DNA of 64,000 nucleotides from Rhytidiadelphus loreus (taxonomy: Eukaryota > Streptophyta > Bryopsida > Hypnales > Hylocomiaceae). Position numbers and translations under genes: made by a program. Positions within the stretch are counted from its first letter, which is position 1. Each line of letters begins with the position of its first letter. This document shows positions 3,833 through 33,612 of this stretch, piece after piece. Below the pieces are notes generated by a model. The model ran no database searches, was not told the origin of the DNA, and was given only the letters and a program-made list of their open reading frames with translations. The DNA lies in assembly GCA_947034895.1 (NCBI GenBank), contig OX344764.1:73761348-73825347 (forward strand). The letters are read 5' to 3'.

Positions 3833-3904
3833 ACACCATTCATTTTTGAAGCTATGGAAATTTTCCAAGTGAAAAGTCGCTTCCAGCGTGGCTGTCCACG
3901 TTGG

Positions 3905-6465: not shown

Positions 6466-6612
6466 GTCCGCGCCCTGACGAGACGTCCACACCCTGTCTA
6501 GACGTCCACGCCCCTGTCCACACGTCCACGCCCATGTCCACACGTCCACGCCCCTGTCCACACGTCCACGCCCATGTCCACACGTCCACGCCCATGTCCA
6601 CACGTCTGCGCC
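6466..6612 (+). repeat. 20-bp minisatellite in hAT-1
   Basis: About seven tandem copies of CACGTCCACGCCCATGTCCA with few variants. The open frames across it are periodic Cys/His/Pro repeats and not genes. Confidence 0.85.
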
Positions 6613-10545: not shown

Positions 10546-10734
10546 ATCGGACGGGCGAGACCTCTATCGGACGGGCAAACCGGACGTCCGTCCGGTATGA
10601 CAACCTTGATTGTGACTCGCTACTTCAACCCAAAACTGCCGCACAACTGGCGCGTGACTTCAATTTCACTCAGACAATAAAAAAAACAAGAGAATCGGGA
10701 AGGCAGCCATGCTTTTTGGAGTGCTGGAGCTTAC

Positions 10735-12414: not shown

Positions 12415-12429
12415 CCTCACATCAGGGTT

Positions 12430-12786
12430 GACAAGGCGTCCGGACGTCCAGCTGGACGTCCGGACATCCAAAGTCCGCGGACGCTGACCCCAGGACGTCT
12501 TTTGACATACCTAGCAGTAGATGGCGTCTGACCGCTGGACGGGCGGACGGCCGATTCTTCCGACGGTACAGGAGCGGACGCCCCGTCGGATCAGGAGCGG
12601 ACGGCCCGACGGAGGAGGAGCGGACTGGCGACCGGATGTCCATCCACCCGTCGGGGGCCCGTCCGCTTTGGACGGTGACCGTGCGATGTGACGGACGCCG
12701 ATTTTCCACCGTTCGATCTTGCCGTCCGCATGTGTGCCGTCCGATGCTCCCGTACGTGGATTCATGCCGTCCGACTGCATAAATAG
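12430..12786. promoter_or_regulatory. GGACG/CGTCC array and TATA-like box upstream of the first CKKY gene
   Basis: More than a dozen GGACG or CGTCC boxes in mixed orientation run from the hAT-2 left end to about 12775, followed at once by GCATAAATAG (12777-12786). The ATG is 167 bp downstream. The array probably serves both as transposase-binding subterminal DNA and as upstream promoter DNA. Confidence 0.6.
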
Positions 12787-12952
12787 CGGAGAGCACGGCT
12801 TATTTTGCCACAATCGTTTCCCTTGCGGAGTGGGTGATCTAGTGCCTAAGGCTCTGTGCGCCTCTTCCGTTTTGGTGTGCAAATGATTGTGATCGAACCC
12901 TAAATTGTTTCAAGTGTAAGTGCGAATCATTAATCATTTAAGCAAGCTTACC

Positions 12953-14053
12953 ATGCCTCGCGATAAGAAATCGAAGTCCAGTAAGAAGGGCAAATCCCAA
13001 GACATAAATTGGGATGATTGGGACAACCAAATGTGTGTAGCTGAACCGGGATGGGAAGAAGAACCCAAAAAAACTTGGGACTGCACGACGTGCAAGAAGT
13101 ACATCAAAATGACGCACCTCTCCAAAATATGGTCCAGAGAACGCGCAGAGGTGCAAGTTCGTCGTTGGGAAGGACAAATTTCCACATGCCAAAGCAAACA
13201 CTTTGTTCATCGATACGAGGAAGTAACACGTTCAGCTCAAATACGGGACTCCAAACCGAATTTAATGAACTATTCCAACATGAGCATGGTTTGGGCGGAG
13301 ATTGTACTCCACAAAGATGTAGATTGGCGCACAATTTACGGAAAAGATGTTACCCACTTGAATCGCAGTGATGCGGTACTTTATACCAGTTGGATTGGGC
13401 CGAGCGATTGCATGCCAGAGTGGTCTAATCAAGGCCAGTTTGGATTTCCACCGGTTGTATTGCCGGATGCAGAAGATGAATGGTCAGGTGATGATGATGA
13501 GAAAGACACTCCAACACCCGCGAGGATGGAAGAGAGGCACGAGCGTACAGAAGATCGGGAGGACATTCAATACCAACAAGAAATGCGAGAGGCAATGCAA
13601 AGAAGCCTAGAAGACCGTGGTCGACAATATGGCCATCATGGGGTGTACAGACCCGATCGTGGTGCATATGACTCGCAAGATACGCGAAGTATTTCACACT
13701 ACGATAATGACCCTCAAGGGGGGTATCACAGCTCAAGGACAAGCCACGGAACCACGCATCATTTTGAAGGTAATCAGGGAGGCTCCCAATACAACTTTAC
13801 GTCTACTGGAGGTGGTTCTCATGAACCTCAAGGAGGCCCTTCTTATGGCAGTTCAACTCAAGGAGCATCTACTCACAATGATTCAATTCCTCCTCCAACT
13901 TTTGGAGGTCCATACCAAGGACATTATGGACAAGCAAGTGGGCAAAACAAATATGGAGACGACTACTATGGCGGAGGACCATTTCTCAATATTTATAGGT
14001 CTAGTGGTACAGGCCCAAGCCAAAAAGATGACACCGAATCAGAATCTGAGTGA
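12953..14053 (+). CDS. hAT-2 cargo protein with CKKY domain and Gln/Gly/Tyr-rich tail
   Basis: 366 codons from ATG at 12953 (MPRDKKSKSSKKGK). The N-terminus is Lys/Ser-rich and nuclear-like. Residues about 47-124 form the CKKY domain: CKKYIKMTHLSKIW, later HFVHR, and SMVWAEIVLHKDVDW, with conserved Cys and His that could bind metal. The same domain order occurs in the protein at 25480-28767. An acidic patch (EWSGDDDEKD) follows, then a low-complexity tail rich in G, Q, H, S and Y, probably disordered. No catalytic motif is seen and the family is not recognised. It is preceded by a GGACG array and TATA-like box. The frame is intact, in contrast to the transposase genes nearby, which suggests it is either young or maintained. 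Confidence 0.75.
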   Translation: MPRDKKSKSSKKGKSQDINWDDWDNQMCVAEPGWEEEPKKTWDCTTCKKYIKMTHLSKIWSRERAEVQVRRWEGQISTCQSKHFVHRYEEVTRSAQIRDSKPNLMNYSNMSMVWAEIVLHKDVDWRTIYGKDVTHLNRSDAVLYTSWIGPSDCMPEWSNQGQFGFPPVVLPDAEDEWSGDDDEKDTPTPARMEERHERTEDREDIQYQQEMREAMQRSLEDRGRQYGHHGVYRPDRGAYDSQDTRSISHYDNDPQGGYHSSRTSHGTTHHFEGNQGGSQYNFTSTGGGSHEPQGGPSYGSSTQGASTHNDSIPPPTFGGPYQGHYGQASGQNKYGDDYYGGGPFLNIYRSSGTGPSQKDDTESESE

Positions 14054-15424
14054 AGTAGATTGGACTATTGGACATTTGTAAGATTGTAGTTGTTGTCTCA
14101 CAATACAATCAAGTGATTGTAAATTTGTAATCTCTTGCCACATAATATAGAAAGTGACAAGCACGGTACAAAGATGTTGGCTCTTAACAAATAGTATTTT
14201 CCTATTTGTAAATTATGAATAAAATATATTGTAATTAAGCCCTAAAGCCCTATGGATGTTTTTAGAAAAATGGATTTGTTCGGACCACTTCTACGGTATA
14301 TACCGTAGAAAAACATCAACATCAATTTCTGGGGGGAATTTAAATAAAGTATTTTGTACATAACTTATTTGAGAGCATGGCGCCACGGGGGGGACACTCT
14401 TCGTATTTTCTGGATACCACGTGCGGCGCTGGGGTATTTTTAGGGGGGGTATTTATTTATTTTTTTGAATTTTCAGGCCCCTATAATTACTTATAAACCC
14501 CCCTAGAGCCCATATTATCATGCCTATCTTTACTTATAATACGTACATAGGCTGAATTTATTGGAGGCTATTTTCTTTATAAAGAACAAAACTAATTTAA
14601 CAAGTAATGAGAATTAAAGTGACAAGATATGCCCTGTACACCCACAAGATTCAACTTTAAGGCAAAAAATGGATGTGTTTACATTAGAATGCATACTTGA
14701 AGACAAATACATGCACAAATGCTAAATAAAAGCAAGACATTACAAATGACAAAGTAATGAAAGAGTTTAATGTACAAAATGTATTAAAAAACACAAACAT
14801 TACAAATGAAAAAGTAATGAAAGAGTTTAATGTACTAAAGGTGTTAAAAAACACAACATTACAAATCATTTACAAGAACTATGGCAACAAGCTGCAGTTC
14901 TAAGCCATCCAACACATGTGAAAAAAAATTTAGAGTCTATGACACAAATGTCTACTTGTACATGAGACTCATAGTCACCCCAAACCAATTGGAGAAGTGA
15001 TCAGCTCCTTCACTCCTACAACCATGTTCTGCAAATCCACCAATCATCACATTCCAAGTGATTACACTGCACCCCATAAATCACAAGTCACAAGTCTGAT
15101 TGACAAAACCAGCAGCCTCTCAGAAAACAGTCATGCATCAAAAAAGATGCCACACTTCCAATACATGTGAACAAGTGCATCCCTCACACACAAATGTGAC
15201 TGAAGTCCTCCTTTCAGCTCTACTTTCAGCTCTACAAGGCCCCAAGATGTGCACATGCATTCAAAAAAATTGCATAAGGAATAGCATTTGGTTTAGGGCC
15301 AACCGGTTGCACTTGAAGAAGCACTTCAACTGGTTTGTGCCCACAGCCATGTTCAGCGACTCCACCAATCCTCACGGTCCATGCAATTCATGCGATCCTC
15401 CACAACTCATCCTTCACTTGTGCA
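14054..15424. other. 3' region of the CKKY gene and AT-rich spacer
   Basis: Downstream sequence is AT-rich. It includes an approximately 70-bp direct repeat at 14737-14870 (words AAAGTAATGAAAGAGTTTAATG and ACATTACAAATGA recur). The remaining open frames are short and not supported. Confidence 0.5.
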
Positions 15425-15697
15425 TCATCCACACTTGGAAGATCTGTCTTCGCCCGCAGCACGCAGGGGCAGCACATAAACATGTCCAGGCATGTCGCTG
15501 AAGGATTCCATCCTCTGCGGAACTCTGATTTGATCATCGTTGTCCCAGAATTCGAATGGCCATTCGAGCGCCGCTTTGTCCTCCAGACGCAGCCTCAAAG
15601 ACGCGTAGGTTTCATCGGCTGAAACCTTCACCTTGCTGTACAGAGTTGCAACACCGAAGTCTTCCTCCATCGTCCATAGCTTGATACAAGTCGCCAT
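15425..15697 (-). CDS. 90-residue hAT-2 cargo ORF, unknown
   Basis: The frame starts at ATG 15697 (MATCIKLWTMEED) and ends TGA at 15425. It contains ADETYASLRLRLEDK, EWPFEFWDNDD and HVYVLPL, a mixed charged/hydrophobic composition typical of a small folded domain, possibly ubiquitin-like, but I do not recognise the family. There is no GGACG array upstream. Instead the upstream 1 kb is an array of GATCGCGCAC words. An AG acceptor-like TTTGCAG lies just upstream, so this could be the last exon of a spliced gene. Confidence 0.5.
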   Translation of the reverse strand: MATCIKLWTMEEDFGVATLYSKVKVSADETYASLRLRLEDKAALEWPFEFWDNDDQIRVPQRMESFSDMPGHVYVLPLRAAGEDRSSKCG

Positions 15698-15939
15698 CTC
15701 GTTCAACAAGTACCGCTGCAAACAACCCTAAACCCAAACAACCCCTCCACAAGCAATAGCAAACACCTTCGTCACGCTGCCGTGCCGTGAACACGAGTCC
15801 GGAACAAATCGCAGGCATACAGAACCCCCGCCCGAAGATTCCCCAGCACCGTCGTGAACACACTAGCAGAAAACACACCCGCACAAACGAACACACGAAC
15901 AACACCCGCACTCCGTGACGCCGCTGACCTGAACACACC

Positions 15940-16680
15940 ACCACAATTGATCGCGCACAAACGAGCAAGCTAAAACAATCCCGAACACCATCCTCCACGC
16001 TGGTGAACCTTGCACACCCCAGCAGAACTGATCGCGCACCCCGCAAAAGCAAACCCCGCACCAGACAGAACTGATCGCGCACACCGCAAGAGCAAACCCC
16101 GCACCAGGCAGAACTGATCGCGCACCCCGCAAAAGCAAAACCCCGCACCAGGAATCGGTGATCGCGCACCCCGCAAAAGCAAACCCCGCGCCAGGAATCG
16201 GTGATCGCGCACCCCTCAAAAGCAAACCCCGCACCAGGAATCGAGAACACCTTTGTCACGCCGCTGACCCCAAAACAGAATTCCACAACTGATTGCGCAC
16301 AAACAACTGGTCGCGCACAAACAACTGATCGGGCACAAACAACTGATCGCGCACACACAAGCAAGCGCCCCCGCACAAGGAATCGCCGACCCCTTCGTTC
16401 ACCTCCTCACCCTAAGCCCACCACCAATCTGATCGCGCACCCACAACCAAGCGCATGCCATCCCCAAGAGCAGCCTCCACGGTTCAGCCGAAGAACTGAT
16501 CGCGCGAATCGGAAACACCATCTCCACGCTGCCGTCCCTCAACAAGCAGCAGAACTCATCGCGCGATTAACCCTAAACCGCACCCAGATTGCAAACAAAT
16601 TCGTGAACACACGCTGCCGTCACTCAAGAAGCTGGAGAACTCATCGCGTGATTAACCCTCAACCGCACCCAGATTTGCAA
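15940..16680. repeat. GATCGCGCAC-word array including a 43-bp tandem repeat
   Basis: At 16028-16250 a unit of 43 bp (CTGATCGCGCACCCCGCAAA plus 23 more) is repeated about five times, at 16028, 16071, 16114 and 16158 onward. The word TGATCGCGC recurs with looser spacing to about 16640. The long minus-strand open frame across it is a repeat artefact. Confidence 0.8.
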
Positions 16681-16739
16681 ACAAATTCGTGAACACACGC
16701 TGCCGCGCCTCCCTCCCAACCTCGAAATTATCGTTCGCG

Positions 16740-17822
16740 CCTAAACCCTAGCAGTAGTCGTTAAACTTAACAGACAGAACAGATGGAAACTACCCCATTC
16801 ATCGACTGACTACAAGATATGTTGTAGTTATACTTCAGATTTGTATAGTACCTGTATCTTACTAGTACTGTAGCATAACCATAACTGAACCTAGTAAATA
16901 GAATTCCTTGGATCCTATTCTTTGGCCCCTATTTTACATTTAAAAAATAATTAATGGACCATAATTTTCGGGTATCTATTTTACTTATAAAAGACATGTC
17001 ACTTTTTAAGTCCCCTTCTTTAAATGTAAAATCTTTATAAATTTTACCTATGATGAATTAAATCCACCCTATTTTTCGCCACAGGTCACTTTGTAAAGCG
17101 CGGGGAGTGTCCTCCCCTAGCATGGCGCCAAAATTTCAAAAATTTTGACCGCATGGATTGAAAGATATGGCATGATAAGCACTGCATTTGAAATTGAGAA
17201 CGCCTTTAATCTTAGGCAAAATTTCAGTAAAGAATTTTTTACAAATTAAAATCTGCAATTTCGGTTTAATTTACAAGACCACAACCCAATTATGCTTTGG
17301 AATTTTAATTTCATTTAGGGTTCTAGAATAATGAACGGAAAATTGATTCAAGGAGTTTGGCACTTAAGCTTCTCCTAAACAAAATCAACTTCGCAAAACA
17401 ACATATTGTATAATTGTATTATTTCAATACAAATGGTGTTGTTACTTTGTTGCCCCCCAATGAAAATTTGGGGGATTCTCTTGCATGTGCCATATACATT
17501 TACACGATAGATCATACAATTTAGCACACCACCTTGCCAACCTAGGTGGCTAGGTACCCAACAATCCAACATCAATGATACATCAAGAAGAAGAACTCCA
17601 AGTCTACATTTCTCATCCACCCAAAAAAGATGTTTTGTATTTAAATAGTTTGTGTTCCGAAAAATACAAAATGTTCAAAACGGAAAGCCAATTTCACATA
17701 TATTGGCATACATTGATGGTGTATATATAGTCTATAGTTAGCACACATAGTAACGTACATCCTCACTGATACATTTATCGATTACTTCTATAATCTATAG
17801 TACTATGTAGCACACTCATATA
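16740..17822. other. Spacer between the small ORF's upstream region and the kinase gene
   Basis: AT-rich, with no supported gene. It includes the 3' side of the minus-strand kinase gene. Confidence 0.5.
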
Positions 17823-19307
17823 TTAATATGAGTGACGGAAGTGGTCATCTGGAATAGGCCAATTGTAAGAATTAGTAAATCGTTGGATGATTTCGGAAAA
17901 ACTTCCGCGCTCCGCAATCACTGAATTGCAAAGGCGATCCAAGTAGAGGTGAAATACCCTTGCCAAATCGTGGTGGCTAAACCTCGTATGTCCTTCATTT
18001 TCACGATGAAGCGATGTGTAGGCCTCTGACATGCATAGTTTGTTGATCCGTTGAGCTATTCGACCAACGGCATATTCCTCTGATTTACGTGACAAAGTTG
18101 GAATCATTTCCACATCCGCATCTTTGCGGTGCATGTATGCAATTGAAGGGTCCACCCACCACCTTCGGTTCAAAGCTACATCCCGATCTGCCGCGGATGT
18201 GAACGTATACAATGACTTCATTGGTTCAGTACGAACCGTAGACATGCCCCAATCGCAAACTCCAATGTAAACACGTGATTCATCCTCAGGAAAGTGAAAC
18301 ATGATATTGTCAGGAGAAATATCATTGTGTAGATGACCCGCATTGTGGACTGCATTTATGATATGCACCAATGCCCATGCCAACTCGGTGCACTTCTTTC
18401 TCCATCGACCAAGACGGAAAGCTTGAATCACCTCTTCGGGCGTTGGTTGTGAATAAGACAATCGAATGGCAATGTTATCTGGATAATCATTATCGAGAAT
18501 CAACATTTGCCGCAATGTACCACCATTCCACCAATATGCATACCCTTCATTGTTTGTTGCATGGACAGTGGCAAACCGAATAACTCCGTCATGTGGAATC
18601 CTCACTGCCATTGATTCGTTTTGGTGCTCCAACTTCGCAAGTTGAGGACGAATCCGTTGTTGATGAGATATCTTTGCAGCAAATTCCCAAAATGACGGAA
18701 TCTCATGACATCCTTCAATTTGAACCCTGCGAATTGTTGCGTATCCGCCCTTCAAGATTTTGTCATCTTGTAGAATCACCCTTGCTGTGTCTGGTAGTGC
18801 TATGAGATGTCGTCGTCCACGTTGCAATTCTACATCTCCTTCATCCGAAGTCCACCAATCCAATGACCCTCGCCGATTGCGTCTCTTTGCAAACGGAGCG
18901 CAACGACGAACAAACAAGTCAGCTTTGAGAATGACTTGTTCAAAGCTTTCATCACTTGCACGGTGTTCCCTCCCGTATTTTTCTAGGATCACCTTCGCAT
19001 TCCACAATGCGTCTTGCACCCTGTTCTTTAGAAATTGTTGAAAGCCTTTCTTCTCCATTTCATGAATCCATTCTGGAACGTTTAGAGCATCCGTGAACTT
19101 CTGTGTCATATCCATCTTGAATTTGTCTACACATTCCTCTTGGTATCTCACATATTTAGTGTCAAGAGACACTGTAGTTTCCGCCTCATAAAACTTCACA
19201 ATGTATTCAATCAAGAATGCTTTGCAAGCATTGGAAGGAAGTTCACGTGCTGAGTCAATATCAGGCACCACATTCTTCCCCTTCGCCGCTCTCTTCGGTC
19301 TCGGCAT
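17823..19307 (-). CDS. hAT-2 cargo: protein-kinase-like protein
   Basis: 494 residues, uninterrupted, from ATG 19307 (MPRPKRAAKGK). Residues 1-170 are a charged helical N-terminal region. The kinase-like domain spans about 175-480: a Gly-loop-like LKGGYATIRRV (185-195), the ATP-site lysine in FAAKIS (K212), the catalytic loop HLHNDISPDNIMF (H327, N328, D329, N334) and DWG in place of DFG (D352). The catalytic Arg is Asn and the usual loop Lys is Ser, giving HND-I-S, reminiscent of fungal FunK1-like and other atypical kinases. Metal- and nucleotide-binding residues are kept, so activity is plausible but unproven. Upstream is a GGACGG array with a TATA box. Inside a DNA transposon, a kinase is unusual cargo. 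Confidence 0.8.
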   Translation of the reverse strand: MPRPKRAAKGKNVVPDIDSARELPSNACKAFLIEYIVKFYEAETTVSLDTKYVRYQEECVDKFKMDMTQKFTDALNVPEWIHEMEKKGFQQFLKNRVQDALWNAKVILEKYGREHRASDESFEQVILKADLFVRRCAPFAKRRNRRGSLDWWTSDEGDVELQRGRRHLIALPDTARVILQDDKILKGGYATIRRVQIEGCHEIPSFWEFAAKISHQQRIRPQLAKLEHQNESMAVRIPHDGVIRFATVHATNNEGYAYWWNGGTLRQMLILDNDYPDNIAIRLSYSQPTPEEVIQAFRLGRWRKKCTELAWALVHIINAVHNAGHLHNDISPDNIMFHFPEDESRVYIGVCDWGMSTVRTEPMKSLYTFTSAADRDVALNRRWWVDPSIAYMHRKDADVEMIPTLSRKSEEYAVGRIAQRINKLCMSEAYTSLHRENEGHTRFSHHDLARVFHLYLDRLCNSVIAERGSFSEIIQRFTNSYNWPIPDDHFRHSY

Positions 19308-19504
19308 CGTAGAAAGTATTAATTTTTAGTCCCAATTTAATTCATAAAAAATTACAGTGCACCAAGTACACATAAACTGGAAAAAACGGGCAAAATATAG
19401 GCCCCCAAAACCCAACTCCTACCTTCCCAACAAAAGGAGCCAATGGAGGATAAACCACCAAGCTCTCCGCTCTCTCTTGCAAAGCACAAGGGGGAAGGCA
19501 AAAG

Positions 19505-19822
19505 TGAGAGCGGACGGGCCGTCCGCACCGCCTTATATGAGGCGGACGGCCTCGAGGTCCGCACGAGCGGACGGACCCCAAAGCGGATGGCCAACGGTCC
19601 GCCTCGCTTCGGCCGTCCAATGAAACGGACGGATCGGCAGTCCGCTTCATCGGACGGCCAGAACAAACCGCCCAACCGGACGCCGAAATCGCGGACGGCG
19701 ATCAGCAGCTGGACGGCGACTCCGACACGCGGACGGCGGCTCCGACGAGCGGACGGGGGCTCCAACAGGCGGACAGCAGCGTGGGAACGGAGGACGGCGG
19801 GGTCCGCCTAAGCGGACGGGGG
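19505..19822 (-). promoter_or_regulatory. GGACGG array and TATA box upstream of the kinase gene
   Basis: About 15 GGACG boxes in 320 bp. On the minus strand TCATATAAGG (19540-19531) lies within the array, 224 bp before the ATG. Open frames across the array on both strands are artefacts. Confidence 0.6.
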
Positions 19823-21244: not shown

Positions 21245-24200
21245 TGTGGGCGCTTAATTACCCACCCTTGGTAATTAATCGGACACAACCAGGTTCTAGG
21301 GGTTAACTAAATTCTAACCTAACGGGTGACTAAACGTCGGTCCATTGTGCCTTCCAAGCAATGGATCTTCTTTTCTAAGTTCCTAGTTTCCGCGGGTGAC
21401 AATGGAGTTGTCCCCAATTGGCGAGGGAATAGTTCGGGCTAACCGTCCCCTAACGGCAACCTATGCGAACTACCACCGAATCTATCCTAATCTATGGGAA
21501 TCTGAGGCTAAATGACCTCCCCTAGGACTGAGGAGGGATTACCTAAGTCCCTTCCATGGTTTCTTGAGTTGATTGGGTCTCTTTCTAATCTAAGTTATCT
21601 TTTTCCCTAATTTAATTTTCTAATTTAATTTATCTAATTTACTTCCTAATTTAATCTTCTAATTTAATTTATCTAATTTATCTTCTAATTTAAATGATCT
21701 AATTTATCTTCTAATTTATCTTCTAATTTAAATGATCTAATTTATCTTCTAATTTATCTTCTAATTTAAATGATCTAATTTATCTTCTAATTTATCTTCT
21801 AATTTAAATGATCTAATTTATCTTCTAATTTAAATGATCTAATTTATCTTCTAATTTAAATGATCTAATTTATCTTCTAATTTAAATTATCTTTTTTTCC
21901 TAATCTATTTTCTAATCTAAATGATCTAATTTATCTTCTTGGTTGAGTTCTGACCTTAACGGCTACTAATTCCTAGTCCTATTGATAAACTTCTAGGTCT
22001 AAACTTAAAGCCCCCCCTTACTTCCTATCTACTAGTCGGAATTAATCACTAATTAACAGAGGTTAGCGTAAATTCAAGGAAAAGCGCAGGGGGTTAGTTT
22101 ATCGACCCACCTGATCGTTGTTTGTATGCGCGACCTTCGCCTCCATGCCTCCGGCCGCGTGCTCGTATTCCATGGTAGACACGTATTTTGAATCGGTCAA
22201 ATGCCTACGGCTTAGTCTTTTGCGAGGTAGTACACTCTAACGACCCTTAATAGTCCCTTTCCTTTTCTTTGTCTCCTCCTCTTTTACTCCCACACTATTC
22301 CTACCAAACTCTTAATGGAGCCTTACACTATGACGCTAACTTCTTACGAGCCTAACTACCCTCTTACGTTGTCATGTCCCGCGTCATTCTCATCCTTCCT
22401 CTAATGGTTGGAGAGGCCCTTTTGGGGATTCCCTTACGCCCCTAAGCCTACTTTACTATTTATCTTCTCTCTCCTTTCTCCCCTACTTAGTCATGTTCCT
22501 CTCTAATCTCGCTCCATTGTTTGTTTTGTCTTGTTGGAGGGATGTGAGAGCGTTCGGTTGCATGTGCAGGTCGGGCGTGCGAACGGCGACTTCTTTTCCT
22601 CCCCCCTCCCTTTGCTTGCTCTTGGGATTGATAAGCTTTTATTTTATACCCTCTAACTGGACCCCCAGTTTTCAGTCCTGTCGGGGTAAAAATCCAAAAA
22701 AAAAGGAGATTGGGGCCCCACAGGGCATCGTTCCGTTTGGTCTGGAGCAACCAGTTTGTGAGAGCAACTAGCTGTGAGAGCAACCAGCTGTTGTATCGGC
22801 ACTGGACTGCTGCTATACCGGCCTGCTGTACTGGCCTGTTGTACCGGCCGCTGGCCCGACTTGCTGTACCGGCCGTTGGACTGGCAGGCTGGCTGGGCTG
22901 GCTGGGCTCAAAATTCCTCACCCTCGGGTTCCCGTATGGGAACCCACTTACACAAAATTAAACTGGATGTCGTTCGTCTAGGGTCAAGGTCAAAGCTTCG
23001 CCGTGGGGGTTAAACTTGGATTTTGTGACTCTTAATCCCGCTACCTCGGGACGGGGAGGGCTGCTATTTCCCTACAACCTAGGACAATTCTTGGGGGCTA
23101 AACTTTGGCTTTTCCCAAGAAGATCTTGGGAACTAAACTTTGGAGCCAAAAAATGTATGGGGTGCAAAGCTTCGCCGTCAAATTGGTTTTGACACCAACT
23201 CTAAGACTTGGGATGCCCCTGGGTCCAAAGCTTCGCCGTCTAAGGCCTGTTTTGACACACATTCTAAGACTAGGGTAGTTTATAGGTTCAAAGCTTCGCC
23301 GCCTTAAGGGCAGTGGGGCCCACACACAAATAACACGGAAGGTTGACTACGGTTAGGACTGAATTACAAGGCAATCGTGTCCGCAAAGTAAGCATAAACA
23401 AGGCCCGACTTACATACTAAAGGCCCCCCAAAGCGGCATCGCCAAGGTACGGTGGGGGGTGACTTTAGGATTAGTACAAGGTACAACGAGGACACGCAAG
23501 CGTAAGTGAAACCCACTCAACCCACAACAAGGTACAAGGTAAGGTAGAAGGGCCCAAGGGGACCTTCGAAAGCTTGAAATAGAACAACAACGGAAGCCAA
23601 AAGTGCTCCAAAAACACCGTAGAGGTTTTTTGGCTTGAAACGCCAAAAATTCCAAGATAGCTTGGACCCACGGACCCAAAACAAGTATTGGGGGTGTTTT
23701 GGGAGAGAGAAGGGCCCCCTTTTATAGGTTTCCAAGGGCCTACTCCCCCCCTCGATGAGTAACCTCATCCATCCGGATTTTCATCCAACTTTGAGATTTT
23801 CACCTAATCTTGGGTTTTACGCTGGTCCTAGTTTCTAACTTTTGGAGTTTAGCTCGGAATTGCAAATGGATTGCGCCAATGGCTTCAGAATGCCATTTTT
23901 AGCCTAAGGAACCCCCAACCCCTATTTCTATCACAAAAAACCCCTCGGAAACTAGTGCCAACTGGAGCCAATTAAAAGGGTAAAAACCTAACTTTTGGGG
24001 TTTACCTCTTTTGGCTTGGGCAACTAGCTAGGGTTGTTGGGAAGCTCTAGGGAGTAAGAAAAGGCTCCTTGATGTCCTCGTTCCGACTTCGTACGCTCCC
24101 GGGACGCCGGTCAACCCCGCAAAGATCCTGCCGTAAATATTAATTGGGGGGATGTTGTCAGTTTCGGCTGCTTCCCGCTATTGGAACGCCATGAAATTTG

Positions 24201-24989
24201 TCGGGGCGCGTTATTAACATAAAAGATGCTAGTCTAATTTTTAGTGAGATTTTACCGCGGCCTGGGTATTTCCTATGAATTTCCCAACATGGCCTTTGGC
24301 GGTTGACCGCTCGGAAAAAGATCCTTTGGAGATCAGAAAAAACCGAGACTTTTTTGGGAACCTCTCATGGAGTCCCCCAAGCCACGTGCCAAGTCTTGGG
24401 CTATTCTGGCACACAGTTGGTGGCGAGGTGAAAACTGACTTTGGTTGAATCACCGGCAGTCAGGGAATCTTTCACATGTGAGGGAATCTTGGCGAATGGG
24501 TTTTGCCGTGGATGTCCCGACATGTTCCAGATCTGAGAACACTATCCGGCGGCTGTGGATTCCTCCATGCGGCCTGTCTGGGACAAGTGACACCTGCAAG
24601 CTAACAAATTGGATTTTCTAATGTTTCGTCGGTGGAATGGGGAAACTAGAACCTATCTTTGGAGATTTACGTGGGGACCTCCCCCACTCTCCTAAGACTT
24701 GATTTAGCCTATCATGGTCACATGTACTAGGGTTTTGGGCTATTTTGGATAAGTTCCCAGTAGCCCTATTGTTTCCCACTAATTATGGGTTCTAACCTAT
24801 ATACAAGTGGGTTTTATGGGTAATCTATGGGTAAAAGGCTATTTATGACCAAATGCTATACTGGTACGTGACATACCTATTTTGGTTCTACACTCTTTTT
24901 TGGGCTTTTTGTATTACTTTATGCCTTAATTTGTAATAAACTAAAAAAAAGAAAACAATGAGTCCCAAGTGACGAATTTGGGGCTCACA
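21245..24989 (-). mobile_element. Solo-LTR-like element 1 (3,745 bp), minus orientation, inside hAT-2
   Basis: On the minus strand it begins TGTGAGCCCC (24989) and ends GCGCCCACA (21245), giving TG...CA ends. The 5-bp duplication AAGGG is exact (21240-21244 and 24990-24994). It is a diverged inverted copy of 45608-49722. A TATA box, CCTATAAAAGGGGG, lies near 23715-23730 on the minus strand. No internal retrotransposon genes or second LTR are seen, so it is best read as a solo LTR. It inserted at the edge of the GGACGG array in front of the RING gene. Confidence 0.8.
21590..21945. repeat. AT-rich tandem repeat in LTR 1
   Basis: Tandem ATCTAATTTATCTTCTAATT-type units in irregular 25-40 bp periods. 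The inverted equivalent is at 48905-49390 in LTR 2. Confidence 0.85.
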
Positions 24990-24994
24990 AAGGG

Positions 24995-25250
24995 CGGACG
25001 GACCCGTCGGAGCAGGCGGACGGCGACTCCAACGGGCGGACGGCCTGTCGGAAATGCGGACAGAAGCGTCGGAATCGCGGACGGGGGGCAACAGGCGGAC
25101 GGCGGCGGCGGGAAGGCGGACGGCAGCGTCGGATTTGGAGACGGATGGGCCGTCCGATTGAGCGGACGTTCGGGTCCGCTTCGCATTGGTCAGGGGAGGT
25201 TCGGTGGCGGACGATCTTAGGTTTGGTTTCGGACGGCTATAAGGGCGGAC
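24995..25250 (+). promoter_or_regulatory. GGACGG array and TATA box upstream of the RING/CKKY gene
   Basis: About a dozen GGACG boxes; CTATAAGG (25237-25244) lies among the last boxes, 236 bp before the ATG at 25480. Confidence 0.6.
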
Positions 25251-25479
25251 GGCCTTCTTGTTTTTTCTCACTTCCCTCTCCTTCCTAGGACTCACAACCG
25301 TGTTGGATGTGCTACTGTTGCTTCATTGTGCCAGTTGCTCCTACATGGTGGAGAGGTGGGGTCATTCATCTTTCATTATTGGTTCACATACAAACATTCA
25401 TTGAAACTTGGGTGGATTGAAGATACATACTCTTGGTGACTATTTAAATTCAATTGGGGACAAGTTCAAGTTGACAACC

Positions 25480-28400
25480 ATGAGTGGTCAAGGCGTTGAA
25501 GGAAGTGGTGGGTTGACCGGCGGAGGTGACAATAGTAGGAGGCCTAAACCAAAGGGAACCGCCCATGAGCTCCACTATGAGATTTTAGATGATCCCAACA
25601 TCAAAGCAGAGGGTGGTTGGGAAGCGGAGGAAGCGGAATATTGGTCCTCCAAAACGTGCAAGAAGTATGTGAAGATGTACCACATCGACAAGTTGTGGCC
25701 TAGGGAGGCTCACATCATCCATACTCGTGGTTTTTGTTGCAAACCAGGGAATTGCAACAATGTGCACTTCATTCACCGAGCGCATGAAGTTTGGTGGGCC
25801 CTCTTCGGGGATAAAGCAATGTCCAAGGGGTATATAAACTACAGCTTGGCTTCTATGGTGTATGCAGAATTGATATTGGCACGCAAGGTGGATTGGAGCA
25901 CGTTTCCAACGACAACGAACGCTCCACGTGTGCTTGAATGTAATCGGAAAGATATTCCTGATTTGTACAATCCACAAGCAGGGCCAAGTGAGGCATTTAA
26001 ATCCAAAAGAGAGGTCAAACCAATGACAATGACTATGACCAAGGACGTGGAGGTCACAAGTTCGGCAATGCAATTGGCTTCAACACAAAACCGTACGGCA
26101 ATACAAGATTTCAAAGGCGAGCATGTGGAGGGAGACATATTTTTAACTCCTCCAACGGATTTGATATGCACACCAAATGGAACAACAATGGTGGAGCACG
26201 TGGCCCCATCCGCACCACATGAACGTCATGATGATGTCATTGAGGGAGAAGTTGCTAATGCGGGAATTGCCATTCAGAATCTTATAGACAGCAATGCTTT
26301 AAATCATTTGGCAAGTACTTCGAAGCAAAGTTTGCCGAAGACACCGAGCCCGACATTGAATCTAGGAGTTGAGGTGCATCCTTCACCTCATCATGGAGAA
26401 CAATCGGATGGCGTGCTGCCAAATGAGACCATTCTTGGCGGATTTATCGATTCCAAGTATCCACATTTGTCATCATTGAGGACATCAAAATGGCAAATTG
26501 TTCATCGGATGCCCTCGGTTGCATTATTAGAATCTTTGTGTAAAGGTTCACATTTGTGGCGGTCACACGAAGAACGTTTAAAGAACATGGAGCACACCAA
26601 CGAGGATGGCACGAGTAACGGAGGCGCGAAAACCCAAGATGAGCCTTCCGAGAGTCAATGGGCTGATTTTGTTTTGACCGCATCAAAATTGGCAGTTACG
26701 GCTCAATTTGTAGCAGAAGTCGCTCCAAGGCTGCAAGAAGTTGCAACGGATTTTTCCAAATTAGCGCCTGAATTGTTGAGTGGTGCCTTGGACTTCGTGA
26801 AGTTCAGCCAATCTATGACACCATTTCTCGACGAGCGTGTTACAGATTTGAAGGTTTTGAGTGAATACCAAGAGGAGATCAAGAAGTATAAGGGTATAGA
26901 TGTTGAGAATCTCAAGTTGGCGGCGGATGCTTCGAAATTGAAAGAGAAGCTAGAGACATTGGAGGCTCAATCAGATCGTCGCCATAATACATTGCTTTTC
27001 CAAAGGAAGTTTATTGAAGACTTGGAGTACGAAATTGTAGCATTGAAGAAGAAAATCCGAGAAGGTGAGGTGGTTGTTGAGAAGGGAAAGGAGAAAGTGG
27101 AGGACAGACTAGATGGCATTGAGGAAAACAACAATCCGGATTTGTTGTATTTGACCCCCATCGGTAATACTAATTCGACATTCCACGATGCTTCCATGCA
27201 AACGGAAAGCAATGAGGTCAAAGAATTGAAGCAAAAATTGAACGAGGTCACCGAAGAAAACACGCGTTTGGAGGCCGAGTTGAAACAATTGCAACGGATA
27301 GTGCAATTGGATGAATATATGCCGAAGGGCACTTTGGACTCTCGATGGTTGGCATGGGTGCAAAAACTCGAAGACAAACTGTCTGTAATATCACGAGCAA
27401 TGAAAGGGCTACTCAAATTGGCAATGAAGTCAGATGAAGAATGCGATAGCGTGGAGTCCTCTCTTTGGCGTTTGAAGAAGATGTTTGCCTTTGTGCCAAC
27501 GGGGTCTACCGAAATCACATATTGGGGAGACATGGATGCAATGTTCGAGCGTTTGAACCACACAAAGAAGGAAGAGGTGGCCTCCATTAATTGGGCCTTG
27601 GAACTAGAAGAAGGTTGGGTCCCTTATCCCACGCTTTCGGCACACATCAAGAAGAATGACAAGACAATGGTGCATGCTTGTGATCCTTCGGCCTTAATAT
27701 TGGAGGGTCATTGTAGCCTTTGTCGAGTTCATTTTGGGCCCAAGGGAGCCCTCACCATGGGCCAATGTCCTCACAATTTCCACGTCACATGCATCGTGAG
27801 AGCATCCCTTATTCGTTCGGTGTGCCCCGAGTGTCGTTCTCCCTTGCCTCCTAGGTTCTACGAAATGCTCGGGATCTCGGAAGCTATGCCCCCCAGCCAT
27901 GAATACAATCGATGGACCCTTCCGTTAGACCAAGCGCCATTCAAATTTCAAAATTATGCGCATTGGGGAAAAAGTCTAACGTGGGATTCGGTAAATTCTA
28001 CACATGGGCTATACGAATCATCGGAGGTGCCGATAGATTCCTTGGTGTGGATGACCCACGATCGAGAGGTGGAGTTGCGAGCTAGAGGTATTGCCAACGA
28101 GGAGGATCGAGAAGTGTTTTATCGTAGTATGGGGGGCCATTGGAGCATGCAACACCACAAATTCTTTCGATTTCCCGAAAAGGAAGTGAAGAAAGGACTA
28201 GATGGCAATTGGATAGAGGTGGAGCCTACACAAGAGTTTAATGAGAAATACGGGGATTACAATCACACTTTGCTAGGGAGGGCCCTGTTTTTATCAAAGT
28301 TGGAGGAAGCTGCACAAGTTCGTGCCTTTGTGGAACTAGATGGGCAATCAAGCACAAAAAATTCAATGGTGGAGGTGGCGGGGGCATTTGATAAGAGGAT

Positions 28401-28767
28401 GGGCGAAATCATAATGCATTGGAGGGCATTTTTAGTGGGGGGAGAAGAACCAAAGTGGTTTTTCATGAAAAATGATGATGACGTGGTCAACTTTTTGGTA
28501 GATAAAGTGGATGCTGCTTTGAGAGCGTTGAAGGCAGAAGACGTGGATTTGACTCCAAAACGGAAGAATAAACGGAAGATTGAAGACGAGGATGACTACT
28601 CTCCGGATACGAAACGACACTTTTCCGCAGTAGACATGGAAGCTGCGTCCAGGGGGCCTATGAGTGAGGGCAGTCTTGGTCCTCAAATACGCCGTGCAAG
28701 TGCAAGGCTGAAGGATAAAGACGGTTCGTCGCGTCTTTTTGAGGGAGGTAGCACGGATAATATATAG
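25480..28767 (+). CDS. hAT-2 cargo: CKKY-domain, coiled-coil, RING-H2 protein
   Basis: 1,095 codons from ATG 25480 (MSGQGVEGSGG). The CKKY domain is at about 60-140 (TCKKYVKMYHIDKLW, NNVHFIHRAHEV, ASMVYAELILARKVDW), paralogous to the protein at 12953. A variable linker follows, then a long coiled coil at about 430-620 with many Glu/Lys/Leu repeats. A RING-H2 finger lies at about 745-785, with Cys-x2-Cys (CSLC), then CPHNFHVTC and CPEC, spacing consistent with an E3 ubiquitin ligase. The region after the finger includes FRFPEKEVKKG and a helical segment. The C-terminus is basic and probably disordered. The frame is intact across 3.3 kb. E3 activity is inferred from the finger only. Earlier in-frame codons exist but no earlier ATG was preferred. 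Confidence 0.8.
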   Translation: MSGQGVEGSGGLTGGGDNSRRPKPKGTAHELHYEILDDPNIKAEGGWEAEEAEYWSSKTCKKYVKMYHIDKLWPREAHIIHTRGFCCKPGNCNNVHFIHRAHEVWWALFGDKAMSKGYINYSLASMVYAELILARKVDWSTFPTTTNAPRVLECNRKDIPDLYNPQAGPSEAFKSKREVKPMTMTMTKDVEVTSSAMQLASTQNRTAIQDFKGEHVEGDIFLTPPTDLICTPNGTTMVEHVAPSAPHERHDDVIEGEVANAGIAIQNLIDSNALNHLASTSKQSLPKTPSPTLNLGVEVHPSPHHGEQSDGVLPNETILGGFIDSKYPHLSSLRTSKWQIVHRMPSVALLESLCKGSHLWRSHEERLKNMEHTNEDGTSNGGAKTQDEPSESQWADFVLTASKLAVTAQFVAEVAPRLQEVATDFSKLAPELLSGALDFVKFSQSMTPFLDERVTDLKVLSEYQEEIKKYKGIDVENLKLAADASKLKEKLETLEAQSDRRHNTLLFQRKFIEDLEYEIVALKKKIREGEVVVEKGKEKVEDRLDGIEENNNPDLLYLTPIGNTNSTFHDASMQTESNEVKELKQKLNEVTEENTRLEAELKQLQRIVQLDEYMPKGTLDSRWLAWVQKLEDKLSVISRAMKGLLKLAMKSDEECDSVESSLWRLKKMFAFVPTGSTEITYWGDMDAMFERLNHTKKEEVASINWALELEEGWVPYPTLSAHIKKNDKTMVHACDPSALILEGHCSLCRVHFGPKGALTMGQCPHNFHVTCIVRASLIRSVCPECRSPLPPRFYEMLGISEAMPPSHEYNRWTLPLDQAPFKFQNYAHWGKSLTWDSVNSTHGLYESSEVPIDSLVWMTHDREVELRARGIANEEDREVFYRSMGGHWSMQHHKFFRFPEKEVKKGLDGNWIEVEPTQEFNEKYGDYNHTLLGRALFLSKLEEAAQVRAFVELDGQSSTKNSMVEVAGAFDKRMGEIIMHWRAFLVGGEEPKWFFMKNDDDVVNFLVDKVDAALRALKAEDVDLTPKRKNKRKIEDEDDYSPDTKRHFSAVDMEAASRGPMSEGSLGPQIRRASARLKDKDGSSRLFEGGSTDNI

Positions 28768-29109
28768 GGTAGTTACACCTTGTTTGTATTTCGATATGAC
28801 ATTATGGAGTGTTGTTAATTTTGAATCTCGAGAGGATTCAATACTATTAATTCACAACACTCATAGTATGCTATGAGTTGCTTTTCATTAATATAAAAAT
28901 ATGTGGGTTACTCAAATGTTTTTGAATTTACTCTCCTAAGTTTTTGATATTTTATGCGATATTTTTTTGTCAAGTATGATTTTGGACATGCCTATCTCTC
29001 AACATAATTTTATCTCATTAATTTCTGTATTCCTAAAATATCACGCATCTCTAAACTAAGTCCCTAAAATTAAAACTTGTAGAATTAATGAATTAGTCAA
29101 AATCCACCA

Positions 29110-29560
29110 GCCGCCCGCTAGTCCTAAAACCCGCCTACAATTTCGACGCTGCCATCCGCCTGTCGGAGCTCGCCGTCCGCGATTCCGTCGCTGCCGTCCG
29201 CTGTCCACGATTCTGTCGTTGTCGTCCGCCGTCCGCGATTCTGTTGCTGCCGTCCGCCGTCCGTGATTTCGTCGCTGCCGTCCGCCGTCCGCGATTCTGT
29301 TGCTGCCGTCCGCCGTCCGCGATTCTGTCGCTGCCGTCCGCCTGTCGGAGGTCGCCGTCCGCGATTCCGATGCTGCCGTCCGCTTGTCGCAGGTCGCCGT
29401 CCGTGCTTCCGACGTTGCCGTCCGCCTGTCGCAGGTCGCCGTCCGCGCTTCCGTCGCTGCCGTCCACATTTTTGTTCTCAGAACCGTTGGGGCTTTAGAA
29501 ATGTTTTAGTTTTTGCTACTCAACGGTCATGAGGAATGGGCCTGATCTGAAATCTATAAG
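29110..29560 (+). promoter_or_regulatory. CCGTCC array and TATA-like box upstream of the hAT-2 transposase
   Basis: About 20 CGTCC boxes spaced mostly 9-21 bp (CCGTCCGCGATTCTG-type units) between 29150 and 29466, then CTATAAG at 29554-29560, 235 bp before the ATG. Open frames through the array are artefacts. Confidence 0.58.
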
Positions 29561-29794
29561 TTCTTAGAATTTCAGACTAACAAGCACTCTTGAGAAACTA
29601 AACGCTAAGATTTCCAAGGGCTAGGAGCTGCACTTTATTTTGTGTCCCTTGCTTGATAATGCATAGTTCAGTGGACAGGGGGGCTTTGGTTTCCAAGGCT
29701 TCATTCACACATTGTTTCTAATATTTTTTACAAATCTTATCCAACGGTTACATTTTTAATTTGAATCCAATTTACGGAATTGGAGGTGATCACT

Positions 29795-32700
29795 ATGAGC
29801 AAGGATTGGTCTTCTTGGTATGGCTTCCCGGAGGTTGGTAAAGTGCAATGCCGGTTTTGCAACTTGGTGTTTGCTAAGAAAGTAAGCCGGTTGTTTAGCC
29901 ACTTAGGATACCAAGGCACATCGGGGGCTCGTGACAAAGGAATTAGCCTTTGCGCAAAAATGACATCTCAAGTTCGAGCTTTATTTTTGGGTTGCCAAGG
30001 GGCGATCCCACGAAGATCATCTCTGAACAATGTGGATGGCAGTGGCACACCTATGGCTATGCGGGAATGCGATAATTCAAATGGAAGAAACATGGCACGG
30101 TCTACACATTCCGACTCATGCACTGCACCGGAGGATTTGGATCCATTGTCTTCTGAAGTGAACCTCAGTATACAAAGATCAAGTGAGCGTGGTACTCCAC
30201 GGGGATCAAGCAGTAGGCCTCTGATTAGTCAGAAGCAAAGTAGTCTGGTGAATGGATTTGAAGAAGCAAATAAACGCAAGTTGAATGCGGTGTGGGCCAA
30301 TTTCTTTTATGCTGCAAACATACCATTTGCTGTTGCGAGGAACCCAGCATTCAAAGAAGCGGTGAAGCGAACCGCCGAGTTTCAACGGCCTTATATCCCA
30401 CCGTCTTATCACCACTTACGCCATAAATTGCTTGACCAAGCAAAGGCAGACATTGAGGTCAATCTCCGAAAGCGGACCGAACACAGCATTAGGAAGTTTG
30501 GAGCAACATTGTCTATTGATGGATGGACGTCGGTTACGAATCGGCCATTGATAAATGCCATGCTCGTGTCTTCTGCGGGTGAGCAATTCTTGGAAGCGGT
30601 GGATACGACAGGGCACGAAAAAAATGCAACATACTTGGCTGGCATACTTGAGAGCTTCATAGAACAAGTAGGCCCCAACAATGTGGTGCAGGTGAGTACA
30701 GATAATGCGTCAGTGAACCCTGCAGCATGGAATTTGATATCTAGTAAATATCCCCACATTTTTTTTCAAGGTTGTGTGGTGCACGCCCTCAATTTGTTGC
30801 TGAAAGATTGGAGGAATGAACAATGGATTGAAGAGGTTGTGGAAAATGCCCGTATCGTGGTGAAATTCTTCAAGAAGCGGCACATGCCACTTGCAATATT
30901 TCGGAAGTACTCACCGGAATATAATTTGTTGATGGCGGTGGAAACAAGGTTTGCCTCTAATTACAACATGATTGGGCGCATGTTGAAGGTCAATGGGAAG
31001 TTGCAACAAACAGTGACGGACCCACAATGGGATGAATACGCAAGGAAGTTTGGGCGGAACTCCAAATCCCGCAATGAATGTCGAATGGTGAAGAAGATAA
31101 TTTTGAGCGAGCATTTTTGGCGCCGTTGTCAGAATTTCAAGGACTTGTCGGCTCCCGTTGTAAATGGTCTACGTGACTTGGATGCAAAGAGGCCATGCAT
31201 GGGCAAGGTGCTGCACATAATGAGGAAATTAGAGAAACATGTCCTCTCTTTAGATAAACCGCCTTTTCGTTTATCCTCAAACCTTGCCATTCCACTAGTG
31301 CAACCGTATTATGCCCGACGGGAATTGGTGGAGACCGATCTACATTATGCAGGAGCTTTGTTGAACCCCTACCTTCTTGAAGACCAAGAGCTAGCCGACG
31401 ACCAAGATGCAATGGATGCATGCAAGCGTGTTCTAATGAAAATTTGCAAACAAGGGGAGTACGCCTCGGTCGTGAAAGAATTTGTAGCCTTCCGCCACAG
31501 GGAACCTCCATTTCACAACATGTTGAACCCGGACGAGCAACAATTGTCGGCGCACGCTTGGTGGGATTTTGAAGGTGCGTGTGAGAAGCTCATTGCTCCA
31601 ATTGCTAAGAGGATTTTGGCCCAACCGGTATCTTCGTCTTCATGTGAACGAAATTGGAGTAGCTATTCATTTGTTCACAACAAATTTCGAAACAAGTTGA
31701 AGCCACAGAGACCCAAGATTTGGTGTATGTGTACACCAATTCCAAAGTCCTTTCTGCATCAAAGGAAAACGATGAGAAGAAGTGGTACACCGAGAATGTG
31801 GAGTCGGAAGATTCTATGTCGGAGGACGAGCGTGATGAAGATGGTGAAGATGGTGATCCTCTATTCGATGACGAAGATGCTATGAATGATGACATCACCA
31901 ATTTGGATGATGAGCCGCTCCGGAGCCCAAATCGGAACAATGAAGAAGGGGATAGAAATGCGGAAGACATTTACAACTTTCCATTGGATGAGGACAATTG
32001 TGAATATGATGAAGGTGGCCCTTCTATAGCTAAATTTGTAGATGGAACCGGGTTGTTGACTAGCGAAAAGATTCTAGCCAATACGGAGGACACTCATGTG
32101 CAAATAGTGGAGGAAAATGAGGCAATGTTTGTCAATGATTGCATCCCCCAAACAGATGAAGTGATTCCAATTCTCGAGAGTCTACCCATGGCAATGGCAC
32201 TTGTAGAAGAAAATCCCGAAGTCAATGACATGGGAGAGTGTAGGGTGAAGTCTGACATGAATGTGGATAATACAAGTGTTGAATGTGTGGAATTACCATC
32301 GAATGTAGATGCACGTGTGACGGAGTTTGATCGCCCAATGCTAGTTTACAACGTCGAAGACTAGAAGCAAATTGTGCAAGATCTCCAATTACGACCACGT
32401 AGCGATCGTCCATCAGCACTACATACAAGAGGTAGTACAACTTTGAATGGTCCCGGAGGCTCAAGATTTGGGAAACAAGTTGAACAACATTTGACCAGTC
32501 CGACCGGAATGCACCTTTGTGTCAATCCAGATCCATTCAATTCATCATGGAGCAATGATGAGAAGGACGAGACATTGGCATCAATGTTTGGTCAACGTTC
32601 TGGCCAAACAAAACGTGATTCATTCAAATCGTCTGATGGAACATTGCAACAGATGATTGGAGCAAAGATACCCAATCAAGGAGGATCGCAAGTAAGACCA

Positions 32701-33081
32701 CCAACGGTGAAAGAGTCCCACAAAGCTCGAAATAAAAGATTAATGGAGGCTTTTGCAATTTCCCCATCAAAGAGACAAAGTCTTGGTAAAACCCCTCTTG
32801 ATGTATGTCAACCAATTTCAGCGAGGAAATTAAAACCGATTCATGGCCTTAAAGAAGGCATAGGAAAGTCTATACTAAGAGCCAAACAAGAGCAGAGGAA
32901 GGGCCGACCAACGAGGTCAGTTGCATCCAAGCAAGTACAAGGAGGGGCAATTGTACAATCTTTATCAGAGGATATGGAAAAGTCAGACAACGATGAAGAT
33001 GAAGATTCAGGATGGGATACTAGAGGTCATAGTAGCGGGGCAGAGGTGAAAGGAGATAGTGATTATCAGCCTTCGGGATGA
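29795..33081 (+). pseudogene. hAT transposase of hAT-2, frameshifted
   Basis: ATG at 29795. A BED-type zinc finger spans about residues 15-60 (CRFCNLVF, FSHLGY, CA). The hAT catalytic core follows: D242 in LSIDGWTSV, D303 in VSTDNASVN, the C-x2-H motif in CVVHALNLLLKDW, and the C-terminal dimerisation block with AHAWWDFEG and SSSCERNWSSYSF (C617). Close to 31700 the frame shifts by one: the reading frame that continues with DLVYVYTNSKVLS opens in another frame through 32361. A single TAG at 32362-32364 then separates a further acidic/basic tail to 33081. Transposase proper is therefore complete in domains but interrupted by one frameshift near its conserved end and one TAG. The catalytic acid E was not pinned down. 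Confidence 0.85.
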
Positions 33082-33084
33082 AAG

Positions 33085-33604
33085 GGATGTATAATTCATT
33101 ATTCAAGTGTTCATGATGAATTGTTACATGGATGCATGTAACGGCAATTTATTTTTTGAACCTATCATTGTAATGCACCTGAACTTAATGATGTTCAAAA
33201 TATCATCAAGGTTTTTTTGTTTCTAAATAGTCAAGCACTATTGACTGAAATTACATTGTGTGCATCATTTTCTGGATCAAGTATTACCTACAAAAATGTA
33301 ATAGTATAATGCATCAAATTTGGCTTCATGTACTGTAGTTTTATAGATGTCCGCCCGTCCGCGCCGTCCGCCGTCCGCGCCTTCCGTCCGCCGTCCGTGC
33401 GGACGCGTCCACCGTCCGCGCCTTTCGTCCGCCGTCCGCCGACCGCGCCGACCGCCCGTTCGCGACGTCCGAACGGCCGACGGATGCCGTTTGATGGACG
33501 CCGTCCACATCGTCCGCGCGTCCCAAAAATGTGGACGTCCGGACGTCCGGACGTCCGAAAAATGGACGTGATTTTGCCCCGGACGTTGAAATTCGTCAAC
33601 CCTG
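33085..33604. promoter_or_regulatory. hAT-2 right end with CGTCC subterminal array
   Basis: After an AT-rich 3' region the terminal 250 bp (33345-33590) has dense CCGTCCGC/GGACG boxes, mirroring the left terminus. It ends GTCAACCCTG at 33604. No gene. Confidence 0.65.
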
Positions 33605-33612
33605 CCTCACAT

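Follow-up and report, generated by a model that had tools for sequence, protein, structure and literature searches.

A high-copy hAT transposon of the moss Rhytidiadelphus loreus with a kinase-like gene, a RING-H2 gene and motif arrays ahead of each of its four genes

Overview

We have analysed a 64,000-bp stretch of the Rhytidiadelphus loreus genome (referred to here as the window; contig C4, OX344764.1, positions 73761348–73825347 of a 407,041,205-bp genome in 489 contigs), and find in it a decayed copy of an abundant hAT DNA transposon whose four genes move together as one unit. Between its termini are four long reading frames, none with an obvious intron, which correspond to a gene that we call gene1, a protein-kinase-like gene, a gene for a RING-H2 protein, and a hAT transposase gene. 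A common short motif is arrayed at both ends and before each gene, which suggests that the element regulates itself as one unit. The assignment to hAT rests on the ends, the 8-bp duplication and the transposase.

The element and its boundaries

Including two later insertions, the element occupies positions 12423–33604 on the forward strand, with terminal inverted repeats CAGGGTTGAC at 12423–12432 (forward) and 33595–33604 (reverse). A preliminary description of this DNA reported an exact 8-bp target-site duplication around these termini, and this is confirmed, as the copies of CCTCACAT at 12415–12422 and 33605–33612 are identical. There are only two exact matches to CAGGGTTGAC in the window, a number also given by 2 of 100 shuffled sequences. 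The 8-mer CCTCACAT has seven matches in the window and is not rare by itself, so that its evidential value lies in its position flanking both termini. An Rfam scan at gathering scores gave no match, and NCBIfam gave sub-threshold matches only.

The same description spoke of a giant element enclosing 21 kb. This is the true span between the termini, although it is inflated by the two insertions that came later, of 2.7 and 3.75 kb; the element proper is about 14.7 kb, and the term giant is not supported. The first insertion (14386–17118; 2,733 bp) is flanked by AGCATGGCGCCA at 14374–14385 and 17119–17130; it is absent from all four copies compared, and in one copy (L019) the 12-bp flanking repeat is present once at the empty site. 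The second (21245–24989; 3,745 bp) has TG...CA termini and a 5-bp duplication, AAGGG, and is absent from all three copies compared. Without both insertions and their duplications the element is 14,687 bp long; a copy on C5 (48066731–48081524) measures 14,794 bp.

The insertions themselves have some recognizable features. The termini of the first are imperfect inverted repeats, CGGGGGGGACACTC and AGGGGAGGACACTC, accompanying its 12-bp duplication; tandem repeats lie inside it, as does a protein-like frame of 100 residues (15425–15727, reverse strand) with no match to a Pfam family. The second forms an inverted pair with a copy at 45608–49722, both being examples of one long TG...CA repeat that resembles a solo long terminal repeat, and each containing an AT-rich tandem array. 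At the 45608–49722 copy four of the five letters of the duplication agree, as judged by eye.

Copies across the genome

The preliminary description proposed a check of whether the same gene set recurs between hAT ends elsewhere in the genome, and it does. Numbers of places given here include the window and are lower bounds, only the best candidates having been scored, and partners are themselves listed places. We scored at least 112 places for gene1, at least 87 for the kinase, at least 64 for hAT and at least 42 for the RING gene, and the 41 RING places other than the window are 95–98% identical to it. A listed partner in the right orientation lies within 30 kb of at least 86 of the 112 gene1 places; when the gene1 positions are shifted by 1.0, −1.3 and 2.0 Mb, a partner is found at 0, 1 and 1 of 112, respectively. 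Two or more listed partners are present at 42 or more gene1 places and all three at 18 or more, with no violation of gene order and a single partner in the wrong orientation.

The arrangement around the RING gene is equally regular. A divergent kinase is listed no more than 15 kb upstream of at least 27 of the 42 RING places, in 24 cases at a distance of 2.41–2.64 kb, and direct reading of the sequence revealed a kinase at three of the remaining 15. Nine other RING copies were fetched, and hAT lies behind RING in all nine; the kinase and gene1 lie in front in all eight for which that side was fetched, although in the C4:62.64 Mb copy gene1 is represented by its final 136 residues alone, and in the ninth (C1:41.27 Mb) both are present according to the genome place coordinates. 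Copies without these genes, or the genes at unrelated loci, had been named beforehand as the outcomes that would speak against such an element, and neither was encountered.

Both ends were read in 14 copies, ten of which have an exact 8-bp duplication: the window and the copies at C5:48.07, C3:7.84, C1:41.26, C1:0.51, C3:19.71, C1:24.27, C1:18.41, C5:0.84 and C3:43.66 (Mb). CAGGGTTGAC is present at both ends in 11 of the 13 other fully read copies, and the remaining two differ from it by a single letter at one end or at both. For four further copies (C5:46.02, C5:50.08, C3:20.06 and C4:62.64) only one of the two ends could be located in the fetched sequence. The gene set recurs, its order is fixed, and in most of the fully read copies its ends carry duplications; the gene set is therefore the element.

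The copies are unevenly distributed, with 30 of the at least 87 kinase places and 24 of the at least 64 hAT places on C3, along with 17 of the 18 gene1 places that have 92% identity or less. C3 is perhaps an old, low-recombination chromosome.

Motif arrays at the ends and before each gene

The sequence CGGACGGC occurs 37 times in the window, and 36 of these are inside the element. The core, CGGACG, has 68 sites in the element and 21 in the rest of the window, and 67 of the 68 fall into five blocks, the lone exception (31530) being within the transposase gene. The left subterminal block (12437–12773; 12 sites) is also the one upstream of gene1, 185–516 bp before it. Three internal blocks precede the kinase gene (19511–19818; 11 sites), the RING gene (24995–25251; 11 sites) and the transposase gene (29174–29445; 16 sites in 21- and 28-bp units), and the fifth is subterminal at the right end (33356–33585; 17 sites). 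The arrays lie 185–621 bp ahead of start codons, with near edges 185–355 bp from them, and the probability that random placement would put the three internal clusters into three different 700-bp upstream regions is 0.00027. Words resembling TATAAATA or TATAAG can be seen by eye in or after the arrays (CATAAATAGC, CATATAAGGC, CTATAAGGGC and CTATAAGTTC).

Other copies of the element have the same arrays. The 700 bp upstream of RING contain 11–15 CGGACG sites in all eight copies with the full stretch, and none in a ninth with 206 bp only; the corresponding regions have 6–16 sites before hAT (nine of nine copies), 10–14 before the kinase (seven of seven) and 10–18 before gene1 (seven of seven). 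Inside the genes, no CGGACG was found in the first 528–1,000 bases scanned. The compared copies are close relatives, and the arrays in them are thus no independent evidence of constraint.

GC-rich tandem arrays or clusters are also present outside the element at 3755–4279, 6464–6606 and 10548–10589, some with CGGACG or GGACGTCC. These are possibly the ends of other hAT relatives.

The four genes and their products

Gene1 (12953–14053, forward; 366 residues) encodes an N-terminal domain followed by a low-complexity tail, and that domain is common with the RING-H2 protein (25480–28767, forward; 1095 residues), in which it precedes a coiled coil, the RING and a C-terminal region. A two-sequence comparison of the two N-terminal domains gives 36% over 145 residues (E 2e-21), and the domain has no Pfam match at the cut-off. 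The RING protein matches zf-RING_2 at 2.5e-4 in the Pfam scan, below the cut-off, and its eight zinc ligands (C3H2C3) are unchanged in the window protein and in all seven relatives. Its structural model has a predicted local distance difference test (pLDDT) score of only 40.4, too low for use. The kinase-like gene, the RING-H2 protein and the domain shared with gene1 are thus all present as originally described.

The kinase-like gene (17823–19307, reverse; 494 residues) encodes an N-terminal region of about 165 residues that is helical in the model, and matches Pkinase at 1.3e-5, below the Pfam cut-off. Residues K212, E231, D329, N334 and D352, which correspond to the catalytic Lys, Glu, Asp, Asn and Asp of kinases, are unchanged in all 18 aligned sequences (the window protein and 17 of 62 database matches), and from these positions the active site is predicted to be intact. 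The kinase loop pattern fits 44 of the 62 matches; of the 18 that it does not fit, many fall short of the query in length, but P0005, P0008, P0035 (from Ceratodon) and P0050 are full-length kinase matches that do not have it. The kinase model has a pLDDT of 80.6, and its 50 listed Foldseek matches are all to kinases or phosphotransferases, with a best E of 4.5e-8 but a root-mean-square deviation of 9–11 Å. A PDB profile search with the kinase family returned a single match, FUS3, at E 9e-4.

The transposase gene (29795–33081, forward) consists of a catalytic core at 29795–31711 and an acidic tail that continues to 33081 in another frame. DUF659 (7.5e-37) and Dimer_Tnp_hAT (5.5e-8) both match above the Pfam cut-off, and a BED finger is weakly indicated (zf-BED, E 0.069, below the cut-off). 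D242 and D303 are invariant among 15 aligned sequences and CERNWS is found in the window copy; we take these to hold the catalytic acidic residues of a hAT transposase. Agreement of the window sequence with its relatives runs in one frame as far as about 31711, then in a different frame as far as about 33072, and an in-frame TAG stands at 32362–32364. The transposase of the window copy is broken by this frame change and stop, and of the BED/hAT transposase originally described the hAT assignment stands, while the gene is not intact here and the BED portion is weak.

The unbroken form is seen in relatives P0071–P0073, which are single frames of 1,080–1,123 residues ending in an acidic tail with EVKGDxDY. 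When 14 of the 17 hAT matches were examined, ten were tailed, the tail being 254–467 residues long, and EV[KP]GDxDY was present in nine of the ten. Within the genome a 1,105-residue open frame is found at 21 of the at least 64 hAT places and a 706-residue frame at four, window included. We considered whether the frame change is private to the window copy, and rejected this, as this 706-residue frame is found at 4 of the 64 hAT places scored.

A second hAT family

Adjoining one copy of the element is a second hAT element of 10,925 bp (C1:502647–513571), with ends CAGGGTTGTT and CAGGGTTGTC and an exact duplication, GTCCAACC. These ends are the best pair among those searched for identical 8-bp flanks, with nine of ten end letters matching and seven in the next best pair. 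The transposase is 37% identical to that of the window and 43–49% identical to P0079 and P0081, and a further gene encodes the shared N-terminal domain.

This element has its own motif, AGTCGCC, with 23 sites in the two stretches that span C1:498500–517999, 22 of them inside the element; the count is descriptive, as the motif was picked after its tandem repeats had been seen. Blocks are located at the left end (seven sites), before the N-domain gene (five), before the transposase gene (two) and at the right end (eight). At another locus (L011) AGTCGCC stands before a divergent RING gene that keeps the RING pattern, with all eight sites at 3362–3687, and at a third (L016) before an N-domain frame, with four of ten sites at 7193–7350. 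The array layout is thus kept between the families with the motif changed, and it is the layout, not the motif, that is conserved.

Frames at 44281–45009 of the window and at 570–2498 (reverse) of stretch L035 have C-terminal parts that are very similar by eye. These evidently represent another repeat family close to both elements.

Relatives outside the genome

Protein-database searches yielded 62 kinase matches at 27–76% identity, 17 hAT matches at 22–73%, and seven RING matches at 36–54% over the alignment, and these sequences point to long-term conservation of the kinase, RING and hAT proteins. The RING relative P0063 and the hAT relative P0072 have a single contig apiece on record, both 17,649 bp long, and are probably on one contig in another source. 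For P0056 (kinase) and P0082 (hAT) the longest contig is 6,480 bp in both cases, which is suggestive of linkage. Chance is calculated to give 0.00016 contig-size coincidences among contigs of at least 15 kb and 0.0068 among those of at least 6 kb, although this calculation understates chance, because three were seen within the kinase list where 0.18 are expected. The kinase–hAT coincidence is accordingly weak, and the RING–hAT case serves as supporting evidence only. Viral contigs scanned with the kinase, the kinase alignment and the RING alignment contained no relatives, nor did genome contigs scanned with the kinase alignment.

Ceratodon purpureus is among the named kinase sources (P0022 and P0035). 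P0035 (KC19_VG055000) is a cluster of 126 kinase sequences whose named member is on the V sex chromosome by its locus tag, which suggests a large amplification of the element-type kinase in a moss.

Selection among copies

The ratio of nonsynonymous to synonymous substitution (omega, dN/dS) was determined with disjoint copy pairs and a context-matched expectation, window included. Omega is 1.27 for gene1 (eight copies), 1.02 for the kinase (nine), 0.87 for RING (ten) and 0.89 for the transposase core (ten), and no z lies beyond 1. This comparison had been put forward as a check on the cargo genes; the outcome is neutral for all four genes, and speaks neither for nor against them. The transposase core is as neutral as the others, and neutrality between copies is thus uninformative on the role of the cargo.

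Proposed mechanism and alternatives

With moderate confidence, we lean towards a self-contained, selfish regulon in which an element protein binds the arrays, the kinase acts on element proteins, and the RING protein acts on the transposase or on host silencing. The arrays would be putative binding sites either for the transposase or for one of the proteins that have the common gene1 and RING domain, and binding would couple end recognition with the expression of every gene of the element. Subterminal repeats are bound by hAT transposases, and for that reason the transposase is a natural candidate, although the shared-domain proteins may bind instead, by analogy with VANC proteins. The kinase would modify the element's own proteins, the first candidate being the long, acidic, serine-rich tail of the transposase, and the RING protein would ubiquitinate the transposase and so set its dosage, or else act in this way on an element-bound silencing factor of the host. 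A bolder version, which we regard as possible but doubtful, is that kinase, RING ligase and shared targeting domain constitute a complete signalling cassette that the arrays direct to the promoters and ends of the element itself, where it would activate its own chromatin and dose the transposase, motif and reader having changed together between families; this would be a hAT counterpart of VANC working through phosphorylation and ubiquitin.

Several observations weigh against the regulon. The dN/dS values among genome copies (0.87–1.27) show no selection on any of the four genes, 26 of the 112 gene1 places have no listed partner inside 30 kb, and the matching duplication is absent from 4 of the 14 copies with both ends read (C2:71.16, C3:43.80, C2:61.52 and C4:72.14). 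In the second-family copy the transposase frame is broken, a recognizable kinase is absent, and the two pieces read of the N-domain gene contain no RING pattern. The three protein-database searches (kinase, RING and hAT) were limited in sensitivity, and among their matches no kinase–RING pair agrees in contig size and a kinase–hAT pair does so in one case only, that at 6,480 bp.

Three other explanations should be weighed. The arrays could be targets of an anti-silencing factor, as in the VANDAL/VANC system, with gene1 or RING binding through the shared domain and, together with the kinase, removing silent chromatin, so that the transposase would not be the main binder. We think this rather unlikely. 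In its favour, one domain is common to two element proteins, and the two hAT families show the same layout with a changed motif. The element is, however, a hAT and not Mutator-like, and binding by a hAT transposase already leads one to expect subterminal arrays. The resemblance extends to the targets of VANC, which are short motifs in noncoding tandem repeats that differ among related elements (PMC5735166, PMC10398659).

It is improbable, in our judgement, that the kinase, RING and gene1 are captured host genes travelling as passengers with no role in transposition. Omega is neutral among copies, as passengers would predict, but it is just as neutral for the transposase core (0.89), and while the second-family copy has no kinase match, every gene of the window element has an array before it and order is fixed in all 42 listed places with multiple partners. 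Ceratodon is named among the kinase matches and in no hAT match, most matches being unnamed; on the other side, RING and hAT are probably on one contig in another source, and the kinase (27–76%) and RING (36–54%) relatives keep the active-site and zinc residues where aligned. We give very little credence to a composite of once separate hAT elements, in which the internal arrays, which do resemble the element ends, would be relict subterminal regions. Beside the internal arrays of the window copy there is no CAGGGTTGAC, even when one mismatch is allowed, the two internal near-matches being at 24110 and 30713; every array is 185–621 bp ahead of a start codon, and the layout is repeated in the second family.

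Other features of the window

Remains of a CACTA-type element are found at 51149–55609, with matches to Transpos_assoc (below the cut-off), Transposase_21 (1.1e-60) and DUF4216. The frames behind it at 57419–58540 and 59120–59875 may be its further genes; the former was also considered as a relative of the cargo RING protein, and no relation was found.

Comparison with known systems and significance

hAT-type DNA transposons, such as Ac, Tam3, Tol2 and hobo, are textbook one-gene elements. The Rhytidiadelphus element resembles members of this superfamily in its 8-bp duplication, short ends starting with CAG, subterminal repeats, and a transposase with DUF659 and Dimer_Tnp_hAT, and departs from them in its three extra genes, its size of about 14.7 kb, the arrays ahead of every gene and, in relatives, the transposase tail of about 400 residues. 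The giant Starship transposons are likewise cargo-bearing DNA elements, but these are mobilised by a tyrosine recombinase captain, whereas our element has a hAT transposase, terminal repeats and 8-bp duplications; a tyrosine recombinase domain was not found in the sets of six and eight frames scanned. VANDAL elements have a Mutator-like transposase, and are not known to encode a kinase or a RING protein.

The likeness to VANDAL and VANC lies in accessory genes beside the transposase, noncoding arrays of short motifs, and a motif that varies among related elements (PMC5735166, PMC10398659); the differences are that the window element has hAT domains and no Mutator-like transposase, and that binding is shown for VANC, whereas the arrays here are putative binding sites. 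IS3EU DNA transposons of fungi carry transposase, TET/JBP and alpha-kinase genes (PMC12730594). They too are DNA transposons in which a kinase gene is conserved and the gene order is fixed, although with an alpha-kinase and a transposase of another superfamily, whereas the kinase here matches PF00069; an alpha-kinase domain was not found in a Pfam scan, which gave only Pkinase, APH, Pkinase_fungal and APP_E2 at E values up to 1. The hAT7 elements of Puccinia carry a TET/JBP dioxygenase (PMC12730594), and these share with our element a hAT with a chromatin-related accessory enzyme, but are fungal, with 7-bp duplications and a dioxygenase.

We found no report in open-licence PubMed Central papers of a hAT element that encodes both a protein kinase and a RING protein, or of common arrays ahead of every hAT gene, and a term search of a review of how plant elements capture genes (PMC13317346) finds no hAT, kinase, bryophyte or moss. 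A high-copy hAT with its own kinase, RING protein and common motif would open to direct test the questions of how a DNA transposon regulates its dosage and of how plant transposons other than the Mutator-like VANDAL elements escape silencing. Because the two families differ in their motif, they provide a ready test of specificity.

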